Part shown: in pieces, positions 47,289-62,156 of the stretch
Position numbering within the stretch: position 1 is the first letter of the stretch
Layout of the letters: each line of letters begins with the position of its first letter
Assembly (NCBI RefSeq): GCF_005311025.1
Contig: NZ_CP031747.1
Span: 248,001 to 312,000 of the forward strand
Source of the DNA: Alcaligenes faecalis
GTDB taxonomy: Bacteria > Pseudomonadota > Gammaproteobacteria > Burkholderiales > Burkholderiaceae_B
Direction of reading: 5' to 3'
DNA length: 64,000 nucleotides
Notes under the pieces: generated by a model
The model's input: the letters and a program-made list of their open reading frames with translations, nothing else
Told to the model about the DNA's origin: nothing
The model's database searches: none
Made by a program: the position numbers and the translations under genes

Positions 47289-47373
47289 TGGTGCCCAGGA
47301 GAGGACTCGAACCTCCACACCCGAAGGCACATGGACCTGAACCATGCGCGTCTACCAATTCCGCCACCTGGGC
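47289..47373 (-). tRNA. tRNA-Leu (anticodon CAG), copy 1
   Basis: An 85-nt tRNA read on the minus strand. It has acceptor GCCCAGG/CCTGGGC, D-arm GCGGAATTGGTAGACGC, anticodon stem-loop CATGGTTCAGGTCCATG with CAG, a long variable arm with TGCCTTCGGGTG, T-arm GAGG-TTCGAGT-CCTC and encoded CCA. Confidence 0.97.
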
Positions 47374-49616: not shown

Positions 49617-49701
49617 GCCCAGGTGGCGGAATTGGTAGACGCGCATGGTTCAGGTCCATGTGCCTTCGGGTGTGGAGGTTCGAGTCCTCTCCTGGGCACC
49701 A
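49617..49701 (+). tRNA. tRNA-Leu (anticodon CAG), copy 2
   Basis: An 85-nt tRNA that appears identical to copy 1 but on the opposite strand. It has the same arms, anticodon CAG and encoded CCA. Confidence 0.97.
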
Positions 49702-49845: not shown

Positions 49846-51177
49846 TCAGTACGATGTGCCTTCAATCACCCGATCGAAGAAATCCGCTGGCCCCATTTGC
49901 CCACCTTTAAGCACCAGCTCCAGCCCATCAATCTCATCGTCCCCATGGCAGATGCAGGCGGCTACGCCTGGGCTGACTAAGTCCAGATAACTCAGGCCCC
50001 AAATACCCAATGCCTGGGTGCTCAAGCTGGACGTGTCGCCGCCCGCGATACAGAGGCGTGACAAACGGTGCTCTAGTCGCAACTGTTTGACCAGATGACG
50101 TAAAAACTGCGCGCTGTCTTCTGCCACGAGTTGTGTAGGCAGGGTGGGGCGGCTTGGGCCCTGGTTTGCAGGCTTTGTTTGCAGCAAGGTATGACGTCCT
50201 TTGCGCACATTGTTAATGACCGTTGCGTGCAGCTTGGTGACATAGCTTGGGCTGTGATGCAGCTCGTACGGGTCAAGCTCAAAGATGTCTGCTTGCTGGC
50301 AATGGGCGACCTGCTGTGCAGTGATGGGCGACTGACTTCCCACCAGAATCAGCACCGGCTGTGTACTGGCGTGTAGTCCCGTAACGGGTTGGGTGAAAGT
50401 ATCAGGCCGTTGGCTTAAATAAGCTTGTGCCACGCTGCTGGAGCCGGCAGTTAACACGGTTCCGTTTTGGCTGAGCGCTTTAAGCAGCGCACCAGCCTGT
50501 GCAATATCGGCCTCACAAGCAATGTCCAGCAGAGGATGCTGATGCCCGTGTTCTGCAGCTTGCCCTTGCCATTGTTTGCTTTGCTTGTTCGCTTCGTAGT
50601 CCGTCTTCTGATATTCGGTCCACGGCAAAGAGGACACGTTTTTTAACCCCTGTGCTTGCAGATGAAGCAGTAAATCTGCTTCGTGCATGGGCGTGACAGG
50701 GTGTGATCCCATCGTAGGGTGTCGATCAATTCGGTAGACCTGTCCGTCTTGTCCAGCCTGCGCGAACAGGGTGGCAAAAACGCAGTAGCGTCCCAGATTG
50801 ATTTGTCCCCCCAGTACAGGGCTGACAGCGACCTGAGCCAGCGGGCGTAGGCACTCCAAAGCGATCGCAATATTGCCGATTTCAGGACTGCTATCGAAGG
50901 TTGAGCAAATCTTGTAATGCAATAGCTTGGGCTGCATGGAGGCCAGAAAAGGGGTGACGCCCTTCAAGCTGTTGCGGATTTGCTCGCAATCCAGCGAGCG
51001 GGTCGCCCCCGCCAGCCCTATGGCTTCCAGTCCTTGCAGCCTTTTCAGGTGATGGGGGCTGGGGGCTTGCAAGAGCAGGATGGCACGTACTCCGCTCTGG
51101 CTTAAGGTCGCCAAGGTATCGCTGGCTCCGGTGAAGTCGTCGCCATACCAGACATATTCGGGGCGTAATACAGTCAT
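49846..51177 (-). CDS. DUF1537 four-carbon acid-sugar kinase family protein (OiaK/DtnK-like)
   Basis: This is a 443-residue ATP-dependent kinase of the DUF1537 family, members of which phosphorylate threonate, erythronate, 4-hydroxythreonine or 3-oxo-isoapionate. The N-terminal substrate motif YGDDFTGASDTLATLSQ (residues 11-27), the middle ILVGSQSPITAQQV and the C-terminal nucleotide motif LCIAGGDTSSLSTQAL plus GLELVLKGGQMGPADFF are clear. ATG 51177 gives MTVLRPEYVWYGDD. It is the last gene of the operon, 13 nt after the RuBisCO-like gene, which points to action just before the decarboxylase step. Confidence 0.87.
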   Translation of the reverse strand: MTVLRPEYVWYGDDFTGASDTLATLSQSGVRAILLLQAPSPHHLKRLQGLEAIGLAGATRSLDCEQIRNSLKGVTPFLASMQPKLLHYKICSTFDSSPEIGNIAIALECLRPLAQVAVSPVLGGQINLGRYCVFATLFAQAGQDGQVYRIDRHPTMGSHPVTPMHEADLLLHLQAQGLKNVSSLPWTEYQKTDYEANKQSKQWQGQAAEHGHQHPLLDIACEADIAQAGALLKALSQNGTVLTAGSSSVAQAYLSQRPDTFTQPVTGLHASTQPVLILVGSQSPITAQQVAHCQQADIFELDPYELHHSPSYVTKLHATVINNVRKGRHTLLQTKPANQGPSRPTLPTQLVAEDSAQFLRHLVKQLRLEHRLSRLCIAGGDTSSLSTQALGIWGLSYLDLVSPGVAACICHGDDEIDGLELVLKGGQMGPADFFDRVIEGTSY

Positions 51178-51190
51178 GAGGTATTTCCGG

Positions 51191-52465
51191 TCAGGCCATT
51201 TTCGGGCCAAAAAACTCCAGCGCCTGGGCCAGCTCATTGCAGGTTCTGGCCTGTTCTTGCACGCTGATTCCCTGATCTGCTGCTTGCCAAGCCTGTTGCA
51301 GACTCAGCACTCCTGCATGCGCTCCGGCCGGGTGAGCCAGAATGCCGCCACCTGCCATGAACAGCACATCAGTACTGTTTGCGGCCTGCCAAGTTGCTTC
51401 CACAGTTCCCGCCCATTGTCCGGAAGACACCACGGGAAGGACGCGATCATCGTGCTGGTCGTCCAGACGATGCAGACAATGCCTAATGGCTTCACGCACT
51501 TCCTGATCGGCTTGTGCAAATTTCCCCTGCAGTCCGTGTACGTGAATATGGTCTGCTCCGGCCAGACGCCACAGGGTTTGATAGGCACTGACAGAAATTC
51601 CCAGCAAAGGGTGACGCGACAAGGCTCCGTAGCCATTGCGATGTGCATGCAAGGCCAGGCCGGTATGACGGCGCAGAGTTTGCAGCGCGGAATAGCCTAC
51701 CCAGTTCTGGCTGACCATGACGCAACTGCCGCCTTCGCGCTCGACCAGATCGGCGTGGCGTTTCATGGCATCGGTTTCGTCGGTAATGTTGAAAGCAAAC
51801 ATTACATGCTTGCCGCTGCGCTCTTCATGAGCGCGGATCACTTCCATGACAGCGGGAATGCGCTCATGCAAAGGCGAGTGGGTCGGGTCAGCGCAGACTT
51901 CATCGTCCTTGATGAAATCTACTCCGGCATTGCACAAGGTTCGCACCAGCTGTACCACGTCGTCAGTACGCAAGCCCACGCTGGGTTTGATGATGGTGCC
52001 AACCATGGCGTTGCGGACAACGCCGGTACGGGAGCGGGTGCCGTCGATACCAACAGCAGGCATCTCGAACTGGCGGCGATAGGAAGCAGGCAACTCCAGC
52101 GCTTCCAACCGCAGGCCCGTTACCTCGCCCAGATCAAACAGGTTGCCTGTAACGCATGCAGCCAGTGTGGGTAGGTTGGCGCCGATGTTGGCGATAGGAA
52201 ACCGTATATCGACCAAGGCTCGCTGATAGGGGCCAGAGATGCCCCTTCGTTCCAGCAAGGCATTGGATAAGCTGGGCTGCGCGACGCTCTCCAGCCGTTG
52301 CACGCGTTCGACTGTCGCTCGTGCACGCTTGCGCAGCTCTTCGGTTTCCCCTGCAACACGGGTAAATGTGCCGCAGGACTGTTCGCCAGCGATTACCTCG
52401 GCAACCTGCTCGGGCGGCAGGGGAGTTTCGATCAGGTAACGGGCCAGAAAAGTGTCAGTGCTCAT
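51191..52465 (-). CDS. RuBisCO-like protein (form IV, OiaX-type)
   Basis: This is a 424-residue RuBisCO large-chain homolog. Key residues match the fold: K160 in TIIKPSVGL (RuBisCO K175), K186 in DFIKDDE (the carbamylated K201) with the two following metal ligands, HAHRNGYG (H294 region), HVHG near residue 310, and SSGQWAG in place of the S379 SGG loop. Keeping the KDDE carbamate site suggests a Mg-dependent enolisation or decarboxylation, and the altered loops argue against CO2 fixation. The adjacent DUF1537 kinase recalls the OiaK-OiaX pair of apionate breakdown. The substrate here is unknown. Confidence 0.88.
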   Translation of the reverse strand: MSTDTFLARYLIETPLPPEQVAEVIAGEQSCGTFTRVAGETEELRKRARATVERVQRLESVAQPSLSNALLERRGISGPYQRALVDIRFPIANIGANLPTLAACVTGNLFDLGEVTGLRLEALELPASYRRQFEMPAVGIDGTRSRTGVVRNAMVGTIIKPSVGLRTDDVVQLVRTLCNAGVDFIKDDEVCADPTHSPLHERIPAVMEVIRAHEERSGKHVMFAFNITDETDAMKRHADLVEREGGSCVMVSQNWVGYSALQTLRRHTGLALHAHRNGYGALSRHPLLGISVSAYQTLWRLAGADHIHVHGLQGKFAQADQEVREAIRHCLHRLDDQHDDRVLPVVSSGQWAGTVEATWQAANSTDVLFMAGGGILAHPAGAHAGVLSLQQAWQAADQGISVQEQARTCNELAQALEFFGPKMA

Positions 52466-52477
52466 GCTGTGTACGAC

Positions 52478-53017
52478 CTATAGCGTGCTCAGATCAGGGA
52501 AGGGACGTACGGGGTCCTGGCCGTCCCAGTTCTCGGAGGCGGCACGGATCATGGAGAACATCTTGCCTTTGGGGCCCGCCACCTCGGATAGCTCAATGAC
52601 GGCACCGGGATGAAACTCGGTATCGAAATAGCAAAAACGGCCGCGCTCGCCAACCTCGCCGCTCATGACAACGTTCAAGCCATGGTCCAGCGCGCGTTGC
52701 AGGTCCGCATCGTAGTTTTCTGTCCAGTAGGCGACGTGTTGCAAACCCAGCTGGCCGGCTTGCAGAAAGTCCCGGTACATCGAAGGAACATCGTTGCGGC
52801 ATTGAATCAGTTCCACTTGCACAAAACCGGAATTGGCCAGGGCGACCGAGTTATGCGGTTCGTAGGATTCGCCTCGGTACTGGTAATTCTTGATGCCGAC
52901 TTTGGGGTTGTAGTACCAGGGGCCTACACCCAGTTGGCGACTCCAGTAGTCCATGGCGGCTTCGATATCCCGCACCACATAGCCAAGCTGGCGGATTTCA
53001 CCAAATAAGGTACTCAT
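52478..53017 (-). CDS. VOC-family (glyoxalase-fold) protein
   Basis: This is a 179-residue protein of the vicinal oxygen chelate fold with two beta-alpha-beta modules. Likely metal ligands are in RQLGYVVRDIEAAMDYW, in QHVAYWTENYD (His near residue 95) and a late Glu in GAVIELSEV. Such proteins act as isomerases, lyases, dioxygenases or epimerases. The gene starts 12 nt upstream of the RuBisCO-like gene and probably acts in the same pathway. AGGA seven bases before ATG 53017 is a good ribosome-binding site. Confidence 0.85.
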   Translation of the reverse strand: MSTLFGEIRQLGYVVRDIEAAMDYWSRQLGVGPWYYNPKVGIKNYQYRGESYEPHNSVALANSGFVQVELIQCRNDVPSMYRDFLQAGQLGLQHVAYWTENYDADLQRALDHGLNVVMSGEVGERGRFCYFDTEFHPGAVIELSEVAGPKGKMFSMIRAASENWDGQDPVRPFPDLSTL

Positions 53018-53116
53018 ACATAATTCCTGAAGGGGTAAATCAGCTGAGCGAAGGCGCAGCCAGTCCCGCGGCAGGCTTGGAGCGCTGCCGTCGGAGGGTT
53101 ATCAATAGGGAGAGAG

Positions 53117-53136
53117 GCCGGGCTTGTGGCCCGGCT
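53117..53136 (-). other. GC hairpin between binding-protein and VOC genes
   Basis: GCCGGGC-CACAA-GCCCGGC is a 7-bp stem with a 5-nt loop in the 124-nt gap. No T run follows, so it probably stabilises the upstream transporter mRNA or dampens read-through. This is common in ABC operons. Confidence 0.5.
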
Positions 53137-53141
53137 AAGAA

Positions 53142-53942
53142 TTACTGGCCAGCGCCCTGGACGATTTCGTCGGGGATAGGCACACCGGCATACTTCAGGT
53201 GGATTTCATTAAGTTTGCCGTTCTGCAGATTGGTCTTGATCCATTCGTCCACCCAGCCTTTCAGTTCAGGCTCGTTCTGGCGCATGGCAATGCCCAGCTT
53301 GTAGGACTCGATCACGAACTTGACCTCGAAGGGGCGCGAGGGATTGCGGTCGGCAATGGCTTTGATAATGGGTGGCGTGATCGCCACAATGTCGGTCTGA
53401 CCGCTGGCAGCGGCGGTAATCGAGGCAGCCTCATCATCAAAGCGCACCAGATTGGCTTGTGGTGCCCGCTCACTGATGAGCTTGTCCTGAGGGCCGCCAC
53501 GGGTTACGGCGACACGCTTGCCTACCAGATCTTCCATGCCCTTGATGTCCACATCTTTGGGAGCGCCAACGGCTGCTTGAATAGCACCGTAGGGAATGGA
53601 AAAGTCCACGGCCTTGGCACGTTCAGGCGTAATCGACAGTGAAGAGATAATCAAATCGGCCTTGTTGGACAGCAGATTGGGAATGCGGGCGGAGTTGGTG
53701 GTCTGCACGATTTCCAGTTCTACGCCCAGATCCTGGGCCAGCAAGCGGGCGGCTTCCACATCCGAGCCTACAGCCTGCATTTTGTCGTCGATATAGCCAT
53801 AAAAGGGTGCGCCCAGGTCGATACCGACGCGGATCTTTTTGGCGGCCTTGATGTCGTCCAGCGCATTGGCGCTGGCAGCGGCGGACAAGCCAGTCAGGCC
53901 CAGGGCCAGGATGGTGGCACGCAGGAGGGTCGAGAGTGTCAT
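53142..53942 (-). CDS. amino-acid-type ABC transporter solute-binding protein
   Basis: This is a 266-residue periplasmic binding protein with a signal peptide (residues 1-25, MTLSTLLRATILALGLTGLS then AAASA). The type II binding fold of the polar amino acid (PAAT) family is shown by KKIRVGIDLGAPFYGYIDD, LLSNKADLIISSLSITPERAKAVDFSIPYG and GKRVAVTRGG. PAAT systems carry charged or polar amino acids, opines and some acids. Its operon companions suggest a novel acidic or amino sugar-acid ligand. Confidence 0.87.
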   Translation of the reverse strand: MTLSTLLRATILALGLTGLSAAASANALDDIKAAKKIRVGIDLGAPFYGYIDDKMQAVGSDVEAARLLAQDLGVELEIVQTTNSARIPNLLSNKADLIISSLSITPERAKAVDFSIPYGAIQAAVGAPKDVDIKGMEDLVGKRVAVTRGGPQDKLISERAPQANLVRFDDEAASITAAASGQTDIVAITPPIIKAIADRNPSRPFEVKFVIESYKLGIAMRQNEPELKGWVDEWIKTNLQNGKLNEIHLKYAGVPIPDEIVQGAGQ

Positions 53943-53988
53943 GGTGCAGTCTCCGTCAGGATATTGTTATGGTGCTAGGGAAGAATCT

Positions 53989-54717
53989 TTACAGACCGTG
54001 AGCCAGAAAGGCTTGCAGCTCCGGGGTTTGGGGATTGCGCAGCATGTCGCCGGGGCCGGTTTCCCAGACGCGCCCCTGGTGCATGAAAATCACCACATCG
54101 GCTACGCGGGCAGCAAACTCCATTTCGTGGGTGACCAGGACCATGGTCATGCCATCGGCCGCCAGACTTTCAATGACACGCAAAACTTCGCCGGTCAGTT
54201 GCGGGTCCAGCGCAGAGGTCACCTCGTCAAACAGCATGACTTTAGGTTCCATGGCTAGGGAGCGGGCGATGGCAACGCGCTGTTGCTGACCACCTGATAA
54301 CTGTTCCGGATAGGCCTGGGCCTTGTCGGACAGCCCCACTTGCTCCAGGGTGCGTCGGCAAATGGCGCGAGCCTCTTCACGGCTGCGGCCACGAACGACT
54401 TGCGGAGCCAGCATGATGTTGCGTTCTACTGTTAAATGCGGGAACAGGTTGTAGCTCTGGAAGACGATGCCAACATCGGTCCGCAGCGAGCGCAGGCAGA
54501 CATCCGGGTCGTGGACTTGATGGCCGCACACTTCGATCTGGCCGCGATCAATGATCTCCAGCCGGTCTATGCAGCGCAGGGCGGTACTTTTGCCTGACCC
54601 GCTGCGTCCGATAATGGCGGTTACCTGACCTTTGGGAATGGCAAAGGACACGCCATTCAGGACGGCATTGCTGCCAAAACTTTTGTAGACGTCTTTGAGT
54701 TCAACAACGATAGACAT
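53989..54717 (-). CDS. amino-acid-type ABC transporter ATP-binding protein
   Basis: This is a 242-residue ABC ATPase of the GlnQ/HisP kind. It has Walker A GRSGSGKST, Q-loop IVFQSYNLFPHLT, signature LSGGQQQRVAIARSL, Walker B KVMLFDEVTSALD and the H-loop in LVTHEMEFA. The DEVT form is usual for GlnQ-like proteins. ATG 54717 (MSIVVELKDVYKSFG) is chosen because the longer frame upstream runs into the permease gene. It lies 23 nt after the permease stop and 46 nt before the binding-protein gene. Confidence 0.92.
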   Translation of the reverse strand: MSIVVELKDVYKSFGSNAVLNGVSFAIPKGQVTAIIGRSGSGKSTALRCIDRLEIIDRGQIEVCGHQVHDPDVCLRSLRTDVGIVFQSYNLFPHLTVERNIMLAPQVVRGRSREEARAICRRTLEQVGLSDKAQAYPEQLSGGQQQRVAIARSLAMEPKVMLFDEVTSALDPQLTGEVLRVIESLAADGMTMVLVTHEMEFAARVADVVIFMHQGRVWETGPGDMLRNPQTPELQAFLAHGL

Positions 54718-54740
54718 AAAAACTCCTTGGCGATCCGAAC

Positions 54741-55409
54741 TTATTTCTGCACCGGGCCATGAGCAAAATGCAGGCGCATCTCCAGGCGGCGGCTCCAGGC
54801 CGACAAGGGATAGCACAGGGCGAAATACAGGGCTGCAATCAGCACGTAGATCAGGAAGGGCTGGAAGATCGAGTTATTGATCAATTGGCCGGCTCGTACC
54901 AACTCCACAAAGCCCACAATGGATGCCAGCGAAGTGTTCTTGATAATTTGCACCATGAAACCGACGGTAGGCGGCGTGGCGATGCGCACAGCCTGGGGCA
55001 GAATCACCAGATACAGTCGTTGCCAGCGGGATAGGGCCAGACATTCAGCGGCTTCCCATTGGGTTCGGGCCACGGACTGGATGCTCCCGCGCCAGATTTC
55101 ACCCAGGTAGGCACTGACGTAAATCGTCATGGACAGCCCGGCTGCTACCAGTGGCGGCAGGGTCAGTCCCATGATGCTGAGCCCGAAATAAGACAGGAAC
55201 AGAATCACCAGCAAGGGAGTGCCTTGAATGATCTGAATGTAAGCAATGGCCAGATAGCGCAGGGGGCGCCATGCGCTGATACGGGCCAGGGCTACCAGGG
55301 CACCGCCTAACCCACCTCCAATAAAGGAAATCAGCGACAGTACGACCGTCCACAAAGCGCCTTCCAACAGGAAGTTCAGGTGATTGGCATTGAATCCGCT
55401 TGTGAGCAT
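54741..55409 (-). CDS. amino-acid-type ABC transporter permease 1
   Basis: This is a 222-residue inner-membrane permease of the HisMQ type with about five helices. The IQIIQGTPLLVILFL motif near residue 60, the EAA loop WEAAECLALSRWQRLYLVILPQA and the final YFALCYPLSAWSRRLE helix are typical. It lies 3 nt after permease 2, so the two are translated together and form a heterodimeric channel. Confidence 0.92.
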   Translation of the reverse strand: MLTSGFNANHLNFLLEGALWTVVLSLISFIGGGLGGALVALARISAWRPLRYLAIAYIQIIQGTPLLVILFLSYFGLSIMGLTLPPLVAAGLSMTIYVSAYLGEIWRGSIQSVARTQWEAAECLALSRWQRLYLVILPQAVRIATPPTVGFMVQIIKNTSLASIVGFVELVRAGQLINNSIFQPFLIYVLIAALYFALCYPLSAWSRRLEMRLHFAHGPVQK

Positions 55410-55412
55410 GGC

Positions 55413-56096
55413 TTAACTCCTGCCGCGCAGCGCACGCTGACGAGAAAAAACCAGCTGTCCGCTTAGCCACAGGACCAGTCGCATCAGCAAGGACAGGGCC
55501 AGGTACAGGACGGCAACCAGAATGTAGGCCTCGAAAGGGCGGAAGGTCTCGGCCTGAATATGGTTGGCCATGGCCGTCAGCTCCTCCACTGAAATCTGCG
55601 AGGTCACCGAGGATGCCAGCATCAGCAACACATACTGGCTGCACAAGGACGGGTACACACGCTCCAGCGCAGGCAGCAAAATGACATGCCAATAGGTTTG
55701 GGCTCGAGTCAGACCCAGGCATTCGGCGGCTTCCAGCTGTCCTTTGTGAATGGAGTCCATGCCGGCGCGCATGATCTCGCAGGTATATGCCGCCACATTG
55801 ATGACCAAAGCGGCCAGAGCTGCGCCAAAGGCACTGACTTTCCAGCCCAGGGTGGCCAAACCGAAAAAGACCAGGAAGATCTGTACCAGCAGCGGCGTAT
55901 TGCGAATGATCTCCACGTAGAAACCGCAAAGGCGGGCAATCAGGCGGGATGAACTGCGACGACCAATGGCCAGAAAAGTGCCGGCGATAAAACCGAGCAC
56001 GGTAGCCGGAACGGACAATTTGATTGTCATCCAGGCCCCTTGCAGCAGTTGCGGCCACTGAAGCAGCACGCTGGAAAAGTCAAAGGTATAAGTCAT
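55413..56096 (-). CDS. amino-acid-type ABC transporter permease 2
   Basis: This is a 227-residue HisMQ-type permease and the first gene of the seven-gene operon. It shows FYVEIIRNTPLLVQIFLVFFG (the RNTPLL motif) and the EAA loop LEAAECLGLTRAQTYWHVILLPA. Partner of permease 1. The start at 56096 faces the LacI-type regulator across 187 bp, which should hold the operon promoter and operator. Confidence 0.92.
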   Translation of the reverse strand: MTYTFDFSSVLLQWPQLLQGAWMTIKLSVPATVLGFIAGTFLAIGRRSSSRLIARLCGFYVEIIRNTPLLVQIFLVFFGLATLGWKVSAFGAALAALVINVAAYTCEIMRAGMDSIHKGQLEAAECLGLTRAQTYWHVILLPALERVYPSLCSQYVLLMLASSVTSQISVEELTAMANHIQAETFRPFEAYILVAVLYLALSLLMRLVLWLSGQLVFSRQRALRGRS

Positions 56097-56283: not shown

Positions 56284-57324
56284 TTGACTAATAAAATCCC
56301 TAAAATCAGCGATATTGCCCGTTTGGCGGGCGTCTCTACCGCGACGGTGGACCGGGTCTTGAACCGGCGTCCCGGCGTGCGTCCCGGCACGGTCCAGCAT
56401 GTGCTTAAAGCGGCCCGCAAACTGAACTACATCAGCGATGCCGAGTTCAGCGCAGACCGTTGCCTCAAGCCCATGCGCATCACGTTTTTATTGCCTGCCG
56501 GCAGCAATCGCGTGATCCATATGTTTGGGGATGCCATCGACTACTCACAGACGCAGTTGCAGCCTTTCAATGTGGATTGCCATACCGAAGTCTTTAACGG
56601 CTTTGATCACGAGTCCCTGGCCCAGGCGCTGCTGGGCTTGCGCGGCCGCACCGATGGCGTGGTATTTATGGCGCTGGAGCATCCGGTGGTGCGCGAAGCG
56701 GTCGATACCTTGGTTCACGATGGTATTCCGGTAGTGACTTTGATTTCCGATTTGTCGGCCTCGACGCGCTTTGGCTACGTAGGCTTGGACAATGTGGCAA
56801 CCGGCCGTCTGGCAGCCTATCTACTTAGCCGTCTTGGGGGCGGGCAGTCGGGCAGCTTCGCCTTGATTGCAGGCAGTCTGTGCTACCGCGCCCACTGTGA
56901 TCGTGAGTCCGGTTTCTTGCAGCTAATGCAGGAAAAAGGCTGGGCAGATCGGGTGATTGGCTTGCGCGAAGGGCATGACGATGCAGAAAGCAATTACCGG
57001 CAGACGCGGCTGTTGCTTGAGCAGCATGCGGATTTGCTGGGTATCTACAATATTGGCGGCGCCCCTGAAGGAGTGGCGCGGGCGTTGAAAGAGGCACGAC
57101 GAGACAAGAAAATTATCTTTGTCGGCCATGGGCTGACCTCTGATGTGCGTGCCTTGCTGATCGATGGCACCTTGGATGCCATCATCATGCAGGACCCGCA
57201 GCAGTCGATCCTGAACTGTGTGCGCATGTTGACGGCAGCCCGGCACATGGCGGAGGGGGGAGAGTCGGGCTTGAAGCTCAAGCCCATGAACAGCATTGTG
57301 GTGTTCAGGGAGAATTTGCCTTGA
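56284..57324 (+). CDS. LacI-family regulator
   Basis: This is a 346-residue repressor-type regulator with an N-terminal LacI headpiece (KISDIARLAGVSTATVDRVLNRR, helix-turn-helix and hinge helix) and a periplasmic-binding-like effector domain (residues about 65-340). It is encoded divergently from the transporter-RuBisCO-like operon and very likely controls it. The start is a TTG at 56284, as no ATG or GTG precedes the headpiece. Its stop is 2 nt from the convergent LysR stop. Confidence 0.88.
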   Translation: MTNKIPKISDIARLAGVSTATVDRVLNRRPGVRPGTVQHVLKAARKLNYISDAEFSADRCLKPMRITFLLPAGSNRVIHMFGDAIDYSQTQLQPFNVDCHTEVFNGFDHESLAQALLGLRGRTDGVVFMALEHPVVREAVDTLVHDGIPVVTLISDLSASTRFGYVGLDNVATGRLAAYLLSRLGGGQSGSFALIAGSLCYRAHCDRESGFLQLMQEKGWADRVIGLREGHDDAESNYRQTRLLLEQHADLLGIYNIGGAPEGVARALKEARRDKKIIFVGHGLTSDVRALLIDGTLDAIIMQDPQQSILNCVRMLTAARHMAEGGESGLKLKPMNSIVVFRENLP

Positions 57325-57326
57325 TT

Positions 57327-58205
57327 TCAAGCGGCCTTCAGATCCTGAATCAAGGCCTTTAAAAAGTCACTGACGCTTTGTGGCAAGACCCGCTTGGCCA
57401 TGCTTAAAATCTGCAAGTCTCGATCCAGTCGGGAGTCCCGCACAGGAACAATTTTCAATCCATGGTCCAGGCTGCTGCGATGGCTGATTGACGCTCCCAA
57501 GGCGATGGCATTGGTGCGTCTGACGAACTCGTGTAACACCCCCGAGTAGTTGCAGGTAAAGACTTCGTTAAAGACCAGCTTTTCCATCTGGCAAACGTGG
57601 TTAAAGAGTTGCTTTTGGGTAAGCTCCTCGCCGGGCATCACGATGGGATAGGGTTGTAGTTCGTTCAAGGACAGCTTGCTTGCCGTGGCTAAAGGGTGTT
57701 GTGTTTGCATGACGGCAAAAATGGGTGAGCGGCAGGAGTAGTTCACTTCCACATCGGGTACCGGGGCGGTGCTGAAAATAGCCCCTATATCAACCTCTCC
57801 GTTTCGAACCATATCCACACAATCATTGGGCGAGCTCACTTTCAATACAAACCGTGCCAATGGCGTTCGGTTGGAAAACTCTGCCATGACCATGGGTAAA
57901 AAGTAGCGGGCTAACCCCTCGGTGGCTGCCACCCGAATTAAATGGGCCTGGACATAGTCGTTTTGACGCAGACTTTGCACGATGGCTTCTTCTTCCAGCC
58001 GCACGCGCAAGGCGTGTTCGGCCAGGGCCTGACCTGCTGCAGTCAGTACCATTCCTCGTCGCCTGCGCTCAAACAGCGCCACCCCAATGGACTCCTCCAG
58101 CAAGCTGATTTGGCGGCTGATTGCACTAGGGGCAATATGCAGCCTTGCGCTGGCTGCCGCCAGTGAGCCTGTTTTCATCACGGCCAGAAAGTATTTGTAA
58201 TCCAT
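57327..58205 (-). CDS. LysR-family regulator next to an M20 hydrolase
   Basis: This is a LysR regulator of 292 residues with the helix-turn-helix near residues 12-40 (MKTGSLAAASARLHIAPSAISRQISLLEES in two parts) and an effector domain. It is divergent from the M20-MHS transporter pair, which it probably controls. A TTCTAT-N7-ATAGAA inverted repeat at 58265-58283 lies between them. Confidence 0.88.
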   Translation of the reverse strand: MDYKYFLAVMKTGSLAAASARLHIAPSAISRQISLLEESIGVALFERRRRGMVLTAAGQALAEHALRVRLEEEAIVQSLRQNDYVQAHLIRVAATEGLARYFLPMVMAEFSNRTPLARFVLKVSSPNDCVDMVRNGEVDIGAIFSTAPVPDVEVNYSCRSPIFAVMQTQHPLATASKLSLNELQPYPIVMPGEELTQKQLFNHVCQMEKLVFNEVFTCNYSGVLHEFVRRTNAIALGASISHRSSLDHGLKIVPVRDSRLDRDLQILSMAKRVLPQSVSDFLKALIQDLKAA

Positions 58206-58264
58206 GGCTTTGCTTGTTTGTCTCGGGTCTGGGCTTTGTGTTTTGAATTCTAAAAATTAGCTCA

Positions 58265-58283
58265 TTCTATTCTAAAGATAGAA
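58265..58283. promoter_or_regulatory. inverted repeat in the LysR/M20 divergent region
   Basis: TTCTAT and ATAGAA are inverted arms 7 bp apart, midway between the divergent starts. A candidate LysR operator. Confidence 0.4.
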
Positions 58284-58346
58284 ATATACAGAAGGTAAGA
58301 CGGATTCTATAGTCCTCTTTCCTATCAATAAGACAACGAGACAAAA

Positions 58347-59729
58347 ATGGGAAAAAGTAAAGCCTTGTCCAGGGTGCGCGCCTATTTTGAGGAGGGCGGT
58401 TTCGAGCAGGACTTGCGCCGTCGTGTGGCGATTCAAAGTGACAGCCAGACTGCGGAGAAAGCGGATCAATTGCAGCTCTACCTGGATCAGGAGCTGGGCC
58501 CTTCCTTGGTGAAACTGGGGTTTGAGGTCCGTATCCTGGCCAATCCCAAAGGGGCAGGCCCCATCCTTCTGGCTCACCGACATGAATCCGATGAACTACC
58601 CACGATTCTGACCTATGGGCATGGCGACGTGGTGCCCGGACATGACCATCAATGGCGTGAAGGCCTGGCGCCTTGGGAATTGAAGATCGAAGGGGAGCGT
58701 TGGTACGGCCGGGGGACGGCGGACAATAAAGGCCAACACAGCATTAATCTGGCCGCGCTGGAACAGGTCATTCAAGCTCGCGATGGGCGTTTGGGTTTCA
58801 ACCTCAAAGCCATCTTTGAGACGGGTGAAGAGCGAGGCTCGATCGGTTTGCGCGAGTTTTGCGAGCAACATGCACAGAGCTTGTCGGCTGATCTGTTTCT
58901 GGCCTCGGACGGCCCGCGCTTGAACGCCAATCAGCCGACCTTGTTCTTGGGCTCGCGTGGCACTGTGCTGTTCTCGCTGGAGGTGATTTCGCGTGAAGGG
59001 GGGCTGCACTCGGGCAATTGGGGCGGGGTGATGGAAAACCCCGCGGTGGTGCTGGCCAATGCTCTGGCCTGTCTGGTGGGGCCTCAAGGACAACTGCTGT
59101 GCCGCGAACTGACGCCAGGCCCCATACCGGAGGACGTGCTGACTGCCATTGCAGATTTGGAGATTGGTCAGCATACCTTGGGGCTGGCCTTAAATGAGCA
59201 TTGGGGCGAACCGGGCCTTAGCTACGGCGAACGTCTGTTCGGCTGGAACACTTTGGAAGTGCTGGCACTGGATGCCGGGAATCCGCAAAAACCAATCAAT
59301 GCTATCCCGCCTCGTGCTCAGGCTTTTTGCAATTTGCGTTTTGTGCTGGGAACGCAGACAGAGGACTTGGAAAGCACCTTGCGCCAGCACCTTGATGCGC
59401 ATGGCTTCGAGCAGGTGCGTATTCATATGGGCCAGATCATGCCTGCCACCAGGCTGGATCTGGGCAATAAGTGGATCGCCTTGATCAAGGATGCGATCAG
59501 CAAAGTGACGGATCAGAAAATTGCCGTGATCCCGAATTTGGCAGGAACTGTACCCAACGATATTTTTGCCGATGTACTGGGTCTGCCCACGATCTGGGTG
59601 CCACACTCCTACCCCGGCTGCTCTCAGCACGCTCCCAATGAGCACATGCTGACTCCCATTATCCAAGAGGGACTGGACATCATGACCAGCGTTTTCTGGG
59701 AACTGGGCGAATTGAACAAGAACACTTAA
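58347..59729 (+). CDS. M20-family metallohydrolase (peptidase/deacylase)
   Basis: This is a 460-residue zinc hydrolase. Metal and catalytic residues are visible: His and Asp in TYGHGDVVPG, bridging Asp in GRGTADNKGQH, the Glu pair in ETGEERGS, Asp in ASDGPR, and a late His in NEHMLTP. A dimerisation lid is inserted in the middle. The family includes dipeptidases, N-acyl amino acid deacylases and carbamoylases, and the sequence does not decide between these. It precedes an MHS transporter by 71 nt. Confidence 0.87.
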   Translation: MGKSKALSRVRAYFEEGGFEQDLRRRVAIQSDSQTAEKADQLQLYLDQELGPSLVKLGFEVRILANPKGAGPILLAHRHESDELPTILTYGHGDVVPGHDHQWREGLAPWELKIEGERWYGRGTADNKGQHSINLAALEQVIQARDGRLGFNLKAIFETGEERGSIGLREFCEQHAQSLSADLFLASDGPRLNANQPTLFLGSRGTVLFSLEVISREGGLHSGNWGGVMENPAVVLANALACLVGPQGQLLCRELTPGPIPEDVLTAIADLEIGQHTLGLALNEHWGEPGLSYGERLFGWNTLEVLALDAGNPQKPINAIPPRAQAFCNLRFVLGTQTEDLESTLRQHLDAHGFEQVRIHMGQIMPATRLDLGNKWIALIKDAISKVTDQKIAVIPNLAGTVPNDIFADVLGLPTIWVPHSYPGCSQHAPNEHMLTPIIQEGLDIMTSVFWELGELNKNT

Positions 59730-59800
59730 AAAAAACAGACGCCGTTCAGAAGTAACGGCGCATTGCCTTCGGAAACACCGGGGGCAGGAGGAGATAAAAG

Positions 59801-61078
59801 ATGGAGCAGACCAAAAAAGCGGTGGGGCCTTTACCGCGTTCGTTTTGGAAGCCGGTCGCCGCGTCCGTGGTGGGGAATACCTTGGAGTGGTTTGATCTTG
59901 CTGTATATGCCTACTTTGCACTGACCATTGGTCGTGTTTTTTTTCCGAGCTCAGACCCTACCGTCTCTTTGATTCTGGCTTTTGCCACATTCGGGATTTC
60001 ATTTCTGATTCGGCCCATTGGAGCCGCGGTTATTGGCTCCTATGCGGACAGACACGGACGCAAGAAAGCCTTGTCCCTGTCCATCCTCTTGATGTTATTG
60101 GGCACGTTCATGATTGCGGTCATGCCTGGTTATGAAACGCTCGGACTCATTGCGCCTATCGGTATTTTGATTGCCCGTTTTATTCAGGGCTTTTCGGCGG
60201 GGGGCGAATTTGGCAGTTCTACTGCATTCATGATGGAGCATGCTCCAGAACGCTCTCGCGCATTTGTGGCCAGTCTGCAGTTTGCCAGTCAGGGCTTTGG
60301 TGTCGTGCTGGCTTCTTTGTTCGGTTATGTGTTGACTTCTACCTTAAGCGAACAGCAAATGCTGGATTGGGGGTGGCGTGTTCCCTTTTTCTTCGGCTTG
60401 TTGCTGGGGCCGGTAGGATACTGGATCCGCAAAACGGTGGATGAGTCCCCGGATTTCAAAGAAAGTGAACCTGGCGGTCAGCCAGTGCGAGAGGTGCTGA
60501 GTTCACAAAAGGTTTTGCTGTTGATTGCTTTGGGCACCTTGATTTTGTCTACCGCCTCCAACTACCTGATTACTTATATGCCATCGTATGCAGCGACTAC
60601 CCTGCGTGTTCCGCAATCGGCCGGATTTTTGGCAACACTCACCGCAGGCTTGATTCTGACTATTGCTACGCCGTTGGTAGGTTATGTCGCGGGTAAAGTT
60701 GGTCGGATCAAGATCATGCTCACCGCTGCCGTGCTGTATGCGATTGCGATCTTCCCGTCTTTCATGTGGTTGAACCGCGAGGCGACCCAAACGGCGCTGA
60801 TTCTGGTTGTAGGTTTGATGGCTTTGCTCAAAGCCGTGTACTTCGCCCCCTTGGCCGGATTGATGGCTGATGTCTTTCCAGTGCGTACCCGTGTTACAGG
60901 CATGTCCTTGAGCTACAACATCGGCGTCACTGTCTTTGGTGGTTTTGCACCTGTGATTGCCACGGGTCTGATTTCATTGACCGGCTCTCCGGTGGCGCCC
61001 AGTTACTACCTGATTCTGGCCGCGGCGTTGAGTATCGTGGCCTTGCTGGCAGCCAGTCGCAAGCTGGGTATGAGGTAA
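59801..61078 (+). CDS. MFS transporter of the metabolite:H+ symporter (MHS) family
   Basis: This is a 425-residue transporter with 12 helices. The N-terminal NTLEWFDLAVYAYFA, YADRHGRKKAL and RFIQGFSAGGEFGSSTAFMMEHA are hallmarks of the citrate/proline-betaine MHS group. GGAGGAGAT gives an excellent ribosome-binding site for ATG 59801. Together with the upstream M20 hydrolase it forms a likely uptake-and-hydrolysis pair for a small amide-containing acid. Confidence 0.9.
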   Translation: MEQTKKAVGPLPRSFWKPVAASVVGNTLEWFDLAVYAYFALTIGRVFFPSSDPTVSLILAFATFGISFLIRPIGAAVIGSYADRHGRKKALSLSILLMLLGTFMIAVMPGYETLGLIAPIGILIARFIQGFSAGGEFGSSTAFMMEHAPERSRAFVASLQFASQGFGVVLASLFGYVLTSTLSEQQMLDWGWRVPFFFGLLLGPVGYWIRKTVDESPDFKESEPGGQPVREVLSSQKVLLLIALGTLILSTASNYLITYMPSYAATTLRVPQSAGFLATLTAGLILTIATPLVGYVAGKVGRIKIMLTAAVLYAIAIFPSFMWLNREATQTALILVVGLMALLKAVYFAPLAGLMADVFPVRTRVTGMSLSYNIGVTVFGGFAPVIATGLISLTGSPVAPSYYLILAAALSIVALLAASRKLGMR

Positions 61079-61148
61079 GTCAGGGTCGTTCAAGGGAGGG
61101 CGGGCACTGCTAACAAGCAAAGGAGCGTGTTCAGAAAACCGTTTTCAG

Positions 61149-61187
61149 ACCGGTTTGCCTGTGGTCAGCGGGCAAGCCGGTTTTTTT
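61149..61187 (+). terminator. terminator after the MHS transporter
   Basis: ACCGGTTTGCC and GGCAAGCCGGT form an 11-bp stem with one G-T pair around an 11-nt loop, followed by seven T residues. Confidence 0.88.
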
Positions 61188-61319
61188 GTGTCTGCCTCCA
61201 GGCTGGCGCATCGTTCTTGTCCTGGCACCTTGCCGTATCTATAAGATCTATTTAATATATATCTTTATGGGCGGTGGCGATTTCATCAACTGCCTCACCT
61301 CATGTTAAAGGGATAAAAA

Positions 61320-62022: not shown

Positions 62023-62030
62023 TGGAAAGC

Positions 62031-62066
62031 AAAAAGCCGACCATCTTGCGATGATCGGCTTTTTTG
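62031..62066 (-). terminator. tRNA-Leu terminator, copy 3
   Basis: AAAAAGCCGACCATC-TTGC-GATGATCGGCTTTTTT, the same hairpin as at copies 1 and 2 with one mismatch, immediately after the tRNA on the minus strand. Confidence 0.9.
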
Positions 62067-62071
62067 GAATT

Positions 62072-62156
62072 TGGTGCCCAGAAGAGGACTCGAACCTCCA
62101 CACCCGAAGGCACATGGACCTGAACCATGCGCGTCTACCAATTCCGCCACCTGGGC
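62072..62156 (-). tRNA. tRNA-Leu (anticodon CAG), copy 3
   Basis: An 85-nt tRNA with anticodon CAG. It matches copies 1 and 2 except for one change in the 3' acceptor strand (TCTGGGC in place of CCTGGGC), which makes a G-U pair at the base of the stem. Confidence 0.95.

Follow-up and report, generated by a model that had tools for sequence, protein, structure and literature searches.

A conserved gene cassette with a VOC protein, a RuBisCO-like protein and a DUF1537 kinase in Alcaligenes faecalis and other Proteobacteria

The operon described here consists of seven minus-strand genes at positions 49846-56096 of a 64,000-nt stretch of the Alcaligenes faecalis genome (contig NZ_CP031747.1, positions 248,001 to 312,000; hereafter the window). 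It encodes an ATP-binding cassette (ABC) importer of the polar amino acid class, a protein of the vicinal oxygen chelate (VOC) superfamily, a RuBisCO-like protein (RLP) and a DUF1537 kinase, and is accompanied by a divergent gene for a LacI-family regulator. We found that it belongs to a widespread, real variant of RLP-kinase catabolism in which a VOC protein is the steady partner. The VOC gene is one of the core genes, whereas the importer of the amino acid type can be replaced. Computed from the sequences were the conservation of the cassette, the exchange of its importer, the loss of an amino-acid determinant in the binding protein, the separation of the RLP clade from OiaX, and the lack of ApnO, EryH and EryI genes near VOC loci in the flanks read. 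The function we infer is the import and degradation of a small oxidised hydroxy- or oxo-carboxylic acid by the VOC protein, the kinase and the RLP, a reading to which we assign a probability of about 0.5.

The recurrence of the gene set was followed in several samples. In a family search of 250 genomes, an RLP was found at E <= 1e-60 in 79 genomes (81 places). The flanks of 60 of these places were read, and together with eight plasmid records and the window they make up a set of 69 loci. In this set a VOC gene lies upstream of the RLP gene in 56 of the 57 loci whose RLP is at least 55% identical to that of the window; the contig of the single exception, L087, ends before the VOC position. No VOC gene was found in the 12 loci whose RLP is at most 50% identical. 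Since all eight genes are kept at 84-99% identity in another genome (G117, locus L040) and the VOC-RLP-kinase series recurs in 56 of 57 loci, the arrangement is not due to chance. The initial annotation had viewed the VOC enzyme as an extra addition to a known type of gene pair. Across the 69-locus set, however, it is better conserved than RLP or kinase and has to be regarded as a core member of the cassette. The median distance between VOC and RLP genes is 10 bases (138 loci), the VOC protein is 179 aa long in 127 of 142 start calls, and its identity within a set of 29 sequences is 61-99%.

Loci with the order LacI, importer, VOC, RLP, DUF1537 kinase occur repeatedly among Alpha- and Betaproteobacteria, and the order is also present on plasmid records of Azospirillum brasilense, Roseomonas haemaphysalidis, Sulfitobacter and Paroceanicella. 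Most VOC loci have a divergently oriented LacI homologue beside the cassette; none was seen in L075-L086, L234 and L247. When 398 genomes of the phylum were searched with the OiaX model, five of the 20 loci taken had a VOC gene (four with RLPs of 58-71% identity, and L138 with 51%). The reverse search of 398 genomes of the phylum, starting from the VOC protein, revealed that VOC proteins of at least 66% identity adjoin an RLP in eight of eight places, and that those of 49-55% have no RLP beside them in the loci read. One locus, L227, missed the automatic adjacency rule; on inspection its VOC gene directly precedes the RLP gene. An alignment scan of named genomes for the binding protein of tripartite ATP-independent periplasmic (TRAP) importers, from which the best 80 loci were kept, gave a VOC gene in 79 and an RLP gene in 78 of them, the missing ones (L263, L264) being cut by contig ends. 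Achromobacter, Variovorax, Bosea, Azospirillum, Bradyrhizobium, Bordetella and Paraburkholderia are among these loci. We found no description of the VOC-RLP-kinase set in the literature covered, which does not include Carter 2018, Kim 2018 and Zhang 2016, so that an earlier description is possible.

The RLP gene (51191-52465, minus strand, 424 aa) encodes RuBisCO_large (214 bits) and RuBisCO_large_N domains together with the K, D and E residues of the carbamate site, which places the product among the form IV RuBisCO-like proteins; the KDDE motif, already recognised in the initial annotation, occupies residues 186-189. With the OiaX model NF042437 the protein scores 415.7 bits, below the curated cut-off of 700. 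Its best solved relative, PDB 3nwr (570.2 bits, 63% identical), has exactly the sequence of the Paraburkholderia xenovorans LB400 RLP (L254, 100% identity). That RLP stands in the same cassette and the same VOC-linked clade, and differs from the window in having a TRAP importer. We know of no function for 3nwr, and its entry name is not mentioned among the literature matches listed.

A quick RLP tree of 129 rows, some of them on long branches, was built after near-alike rows had been thinned by shared 4-mers. It omits RLPs shorter than 380 aa (among them L206 and L267), contains the fusion protein of L067 cut to its first 424 residues, and labels L087 as non-VOC, as do the counts, even though this contig stops short of the VOC position. 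The main VOC clade has 91 rows (90 VOC and L087; SH-aLRT 98) and holds the window RLP and 3nwr. OiaX forms its own clade of four rows (SH-aLRT 100) apart from it. Thus, the placement in a tree that the initial annotation had proposed as a check puts the RLP outside the clade of known function, which in this tree is OiaX only, since the Xanthobacter and O. anthropi RLPs are not among the rows. Seven RuBisCO positions, E60, T65, N123, K175, K201, D203 and E204, keep their residue in each of the main-clade rows (90 of 90). In OiaX the corresponding residues are Asp, Thr, Gly, Lys, Lys, Asp and Glu, with E60 and N123 as the altered ones. The score far below the cut-off, the separate clade and the differing active-site positions rule out that the RLP is OiaX. 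Residues H294, R295, H327, K334, S379 and the glycines were read in the window RLP from the motifs HAHR (273), HVHG (308), QGKF (313), SSGQW (347) and GGGIL (372), because, beyond position 290, the form I row is off by one in its numbering.

The kinase (49846-51177, minus strand, 443 aa with the start corrected) has SBD_N (137.1 bits) and NBD_C (90 bits) domains, both over the cut-off, and is thus a member of the DUF1537 family. It scores 259.6 bits with the OiaK model NF042436 (cut-off 700), which is also missed by the kinase beside the R. etli oiaX gene (475.7 bits), and 139.2 bits with the 3-oxo-tetronate kinase model (cut-off 350). According to a Pfam search, the genome (4.2 Mb, one contig) harbours a single RLP and a single DUF1537 kinase. 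L067 (7675-10260) has RLP and kinase fused in a single open reading frame of 861 aa. Four VOC loci, three from Bradyrhizobium (L227, L232, L236) and L138, fall in a non-VOC RLP lineage, and forcing all VOC rows together on the tree was rejected (approximately unbiased test, p 0.0016). Their LacI proteins (66-68%), TRAP binders (76-78%) and VOC proteins (75-76%) match other VOC loci. Their kinases come from the other lineage, the nearest outside rows being L136, L137, L133 and L135 (55-61%); L136 and L137 are RLP-kinase-ApnO loci. Since both genes stem from the other lineage while LacI, TRAP and VOC were kept, the RLP-kinase pair was seemingly exchanged as one unit in these Bradyrhizobium-type loci. 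The proposed pairing of an RLP with a kinase of the OiaX/OiaK kind is upheld.

The importer behaves differently. Among the 56 VOC loci of the 69-locus set, 39 have a TRAP importer of type a, seven a TRAP importer of type b and ten an ABC importer; L099 was scored as type a by its permease only and is unassigned in a recount. In the thinned tree set with 94 VOC rows the numbers are 75, 9 and 9, with one unassigned, and at least five changes of importer type were counted on the RLP tree. The permeases, the ATPase and the SBP_bac_3 protein of the window carry the class domains of polar amino acid ABC importers. This ABC importer occupies the same slot in 11 loci, and Arg108 and Thr189 are each kept in all 11 aligned binding proteins. 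We take the position of Arg108 to be that of the carboxylate-binding Arg, and the position of Thr189 to be that of the Asp which binds the alpha-ammonium group in amino-acid binders; AncCDT-1 and 6svf show Asp there in the printed alignments. Because an invariant Thr stands in for this Asp, an ordinary amino acid is unlikely as ligand of the ABC importer. The initial annotation had taken the importer class as a sign of an amino-substituted substrate. With TRAP importers in 46 of 56 VOC loci, three importer types in one slot and a lost ammonium site, we abandoned the importer as a clue to such a substrate.

R158 and R179 are conserved in all of the TRAP binders aligned (10 of 10 rows; six from VOC loci, four from non-VOC loci). 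According to PMC4646407, TRAP systems are restricted to carboxylates by a conserved Arg, which may be R158 or R179. Judged from these sequence positions the ligand is probably a carboxylate. Since Arg108 is kept and Thr189 present in the ABC binders and R158 and R179 are kept in the TRAP binders, our best guess is a carboxylate that is no alpha-amino acid.

The VOC gene (52478-53017, minus strand) encodes a 179-aa putative isomerase, which matches Glyoxalase_4 (PF13669) with 86.7 bits (cut-off 27), has the VOC fold and thus belongs to the superfamily. In an alignment of 29 VOC proteins Q10, E69, H94 and E142 are invariant. We take them to be the metal-binding positions, matching Q/E/H/E of human glyoxalase I, an assignment made from aligned positions. 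The AlphaFold model (mean pLDDT 94) has its best fold match in 3gm5 (Z 17.0), titled putative methylmalonyl-CoA epimerase, which shares the Q/E/H/E positions in a printed alignment. Next come, within 1 Z, methylmalonyl-CoA epimerases (12.8), hydroxymandelate synthase (12.4), and HPPD and the Ni-bound glyoxalase I 3hdp (12.0). The likeness to the epimerases has its limits: the protein reaches only 22.5 bits with the methylmalonyl-CoA epimerase model TIGR03081 (cut-off 114.95), and there is no CoA gene in the cassette here. The position that we take to be the first catalytic Glu of the epimerase is Glu in 20 of 29 VOC rows. Glyoxalase-type VOC enzymes perform 1,2-proton shifts. In view of the fold matches and the Q/E/H/E set, a proton-shift isomerase would be the natural assignment, and a carbon-shift enzyme the bolder one.

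In the proposed pathway the importer, an ABC system of the polar amino acid class here and a TRAP system elsewhere, would take up the acid, and the VOC metalloenzyme would isomerise it to a 3-oxo acid without a redox cofactor. The DUF1537 kinase would then phosphorylate the 3-oxo acid, and the RLP would decarboxylate the product or cleave it by transcarboxylation/hydrolysis, yielding central metabolites. This would be an entry parallel to the 3-oxo-isoapionate / OiaK / RLP chemistry, with the VOC protein in place of the NAD-dependent apionate oxidoisomerase ApnO; as a first guess, the substrate may be a branched, 3-oxo-isoapionate-like C5 acid. We know of no VOC partner in either RLP acid pathway. 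The OiaX/OiaK apionate pathway (Carter 2018) is described in PMC6302742 and PMC11747546, the former also giving decarboxylation for the RLP of A. radiobacter K84 and transcarboxylation/hydrolysis for the apiose RLP of Xanthobacter. The cassette shares with that pathway the pair of RLP and DUF1537 kinase, the carbamate site and a role in acid catabolism; it differs in its separate RLP clade, in scores below both cut-offs, and in having a VOC gene instead of ApnO, EryH and EryI in the loci read.

This last difference was followed in the neighbourhoods, of which about 8-9 kb were read on each side, less at contig ends. ApnO, EryH, EryI and DhnA-type genes were found near none of 141 VOC loci. An ApnO-type gene is near 13 of 28 distinct non-VOC RLPs vs none of 132 distinct VOC RLPs (the ApnO presence list was transferred by hand from the homologue search into these counts). 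The R. etli oiaX operon served as reference. It contains the kinase, two isomerases and an oxidoreductase which we take to be ApnO; the latter has weak NCBIfam matches, ketol-acid reductoisomerase among them, and EryI was identified by NF051858 (257.7 bits). Genes of the apionate routes had been described as absent from the window. In line with this, the R. etli ApnO-type and EryI proteins have no match in the own genome, a result of little weight since no positive control was available. Five non-VOC loci (L133, L143, L308, L037, L039) combine a short-chain dehydrogenase/reductase (SDR) gene with a TRAP binder from the same family. Our reading is that ApnO, SDR and VOC are three ways to one kind of intermediate.

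Several observations weigh against the acid pathway with a VOC isomerase as proposed here. In 15 of the 28 distinct non-VOC loci, too, the stretch read shows no ApnO. The Fisher test for VOC vs ApnO (p 8.5e-12) ignores relatedness. The VOC label changes only twice on the tree, which means few origins; with two independent pairs no test of the exclusion is possible, and we dropped it as an argument of that kind. An SDR gene stands before the importer in 12 of 141 VOC loci, so that the VOC step may be preceded by a redox reaction. In the loci read there are also VOC homologues (49-57% identity) with no RLP. With all sets pooled, a VOC gene is at the locus of 132 of 160 distinct RLPs, which is no frequency estimate, since the TRAP binder of the cassette itself served to collect half of these loci; without the TRAP-scan loci the number is 63 of 91. 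Since E60 and N123 are also kept in 27 of 27 non-VOC rows, they do not mark the VOC clade. Moreover, the best named fold matches of the VOC model are methylmalonyl-CoA epimerases, nearly tied with hydroxymandelate synthase and glyoxalase I, so that the VOC protein may catalyse an epimerisation.

A further point concerns the ligand. The TRAP type a binders of the cassette are 56-64% identical to 4oan, presumably from R. palustris HaA2, whose title, as we take it, states that the density was modelled as 2-acetolactate. This compound is 3-oxo-isoapionate minus two hydroxyls, that is, its deoxy analogue. It is named among new TRAP ligands in PMC5812351. The gene of 4oan itself (100% match, G748; TRAP system at L297, 5402-10107), however, adjoins an acyl-CoA synthetase gene and no RLP, which weakens 4oan as a direct ligand record for the cassette; for this reason, 2-acetolactate is only a hint.

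Two other pathways deserve consideration, both of which we hold to be improbable. The first is a route for C4 acids like the otn pathway: the VOC protein would convert 2-oxo- to 3-oxo-tetronate (the job of OtnI), the DUF1537 kinase would phosphorylate the product and the RLP would decarboxylate it to dihydroxyacetone phosphate. Glyoxalase-type VOC enzymes perform 1,2-proton shifts, and the kinase does match the 3-oxo-tetronate kinase model, though below its cut-off. A downstream isomerase or aldolase would be unnecessary, in agreement with the absence of EryH, EryI and DhnA-type genes from the 141 VOC loci (OtnC, OtnI and LtnD were not among the queries). However, the OiaK model scores the kinase higher, and several relatives of the RLP sit with ApnO.

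In the second pathway the RLP would act on a branched acid as oxygenase or as transcarboxylase/hydrolase, the products being 3-phosphoglycerate and glycolate, and the VOC protein would prepare its substrate. There are precedents: according to PMC8914248, the D-hamamelose RLP oxygenase of O. anthropi (Kim 2018) yields 3-phosphoglycerate and glycolate and thus represents an RLP in branched-sugar breakdown, and PMC6302742 gives transcarboxylation/hydrolysis for the Xanthobacter RLP. No extra enzymes are required for the two products, and such chemistry would suit the seven RuBisCO residues kept in the main clade, two of which are Asp and Gly in OiaX. On the other hand, retained residues are no proof of chemistry, the non-VOC RLPs keep E60 and N123 too, and the comparison with the O. 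anthropi and Xanthobacter RLPs lies outside the rows of the tree.

Within the pathway that we prefer, namely VOC isomerisation followed by phosphorylation and RLP cleavage, it is tempting to speculate on a more specific version, which we consider doubtful. The VOC protein might be a skeletal isomerase performing the metal-based carbon-shift half of the ApnO reaction without NAD (from a 2-oxo acid to a branched 3-oxo acid, of the reverse-acetolactate type), and the clade would be a new functional class of RLP that keeps a nearly full RuBisCO site. If this is true, the cassette would provide a redox-neutral entry of imported 2-oxo acids into RLP catabolism.

It is very unlikely that the operon is an ordinary apionate (OiaX/OiaK) operon with its remaining genes elsewhere in the genome. 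The enzyme families are the same and both models give hits, but both scores are far below 700 (a cut-off that the R. etli kinase misses, too), OiaX is separated with an SH-aLRT of 100 and altered at E60 and N123, and ApnO-type and EryI proteins are without match in the own genome, albeit with no positive control. Hardly credible is finally a chance position of the amino-acid importer beside the catabolic pair, which would fit its class domains but not the same slot in 11 loci, the Thr189 in place of Asp in 11 of 11 and the gaps of 3-124 bases.

The identification of this cassette is important for several reasons. To our knowledge, few RuBisCO-like proteins have a known job, and the clade described here, with 3nwr as its solved structure, occurs widely among Proteobacteria and has VOC as a steady partner. 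Knowing the reaction would reveal how far a largely intact RuBisCO site has been turned from fixing carbon to releasing or moving it. It would also give a named substrate to a gene set of many soil and plant-associated bacteria.

At the level of the window, the reading frames of all seven minus-strand genes and of the divergent LacI gene are open, and their Pfam domains and order agree with the first description. The LacI-family regulator (56284-57324, plus strand, 346 aa, TTG start as listed) matches LacI and Peripla_BP_4. On the minus strand follow permease 1 (55413-56096, 227 aa) and permease 2 (54741-55409, 222 aa), both of the polar amino acid class with BPD_transp_1 and HEQRo_perm_3TM domains, the GlnQ-like ATPase (53989-54717, 242 aa; ABC_tran; 294.9 bits with the GlnQ model, cut-off 379) and the periplasmic binding protein with Arg108 and Thr189 (53142-53942; SBP_bac_3), and then the VOC, RLP and kinase genes. 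The gaps from permease 1 to the kinase are 3, 23, 46, 124, 12 and 13 bases. Two starts were corrected: the kinase most likely starts at 51177 and not at 51237, and the ATPase at 54717 and not at 54816. By the palindrome rule we found no LacI operator common to 125 loci upstream of the regulator gene, the commonest core occurring in seven, and promoter-like and terminator-like sites were not above those in shuffled sequences.

tRNA-Leu(CAG) genes lie at 47289-47373 and 49617-49701, and a like sequence was detected by blastn at about 62026-62156, that is, on both sides of the operon. In G117 the operon is likewise flanked by such tRNA-Leu genes. Among the ten genomes of the same genus in the 250-genome family search, two have the RLP. 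The operon region has the appearance of an island bounded by tRNA genes. A unit of LysR, M20 peptidase and major facilitator superfamily genes (57306-61227) separates the LacI gene of the window from the next conserved block; this unit is missing from the fetched G117 stretch.

Some loci outside the cassette proper contain parts of it. A VOC gene (58-61% identity of the product), a kinase gene and a TRAP importer occur without RLP in the stretch read of L309 (6536-14505) and L310 (8175-16338), from genomes of the same family as G466. L310 instead encodes a DeoR regulator as well as two enzymes, a PdxA-type dehydrogenase and a DhnA/LsrF-type aldolase; each of the three has a homologue in L309. 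In this operon type the same initial steps by VOC and kinase would lead to a different end, which supports the link between VOC and kinase. In L175, L322 and L323, VOC paralogues (about 53-57% identical) without RLP adjoin a carboxymuconolactone-decarboxylase-family gene (in L323 by homology). As a functional clue the paralogues of 49-57% identity were set aside, because crude gene calling gave no constant neighbours apart from this gene in three loci. An acyl-CoA synthetase homologue is present in all seven other regions compared with the 4oan locus L297. Finally, on a haloarchaeal plasmid (L275, Natronosalvus rutilus) the genes for an RLP and a DUF1537 kinase form a pair, and SDR and cupin genes and an unlike VOC gene lie nearby.

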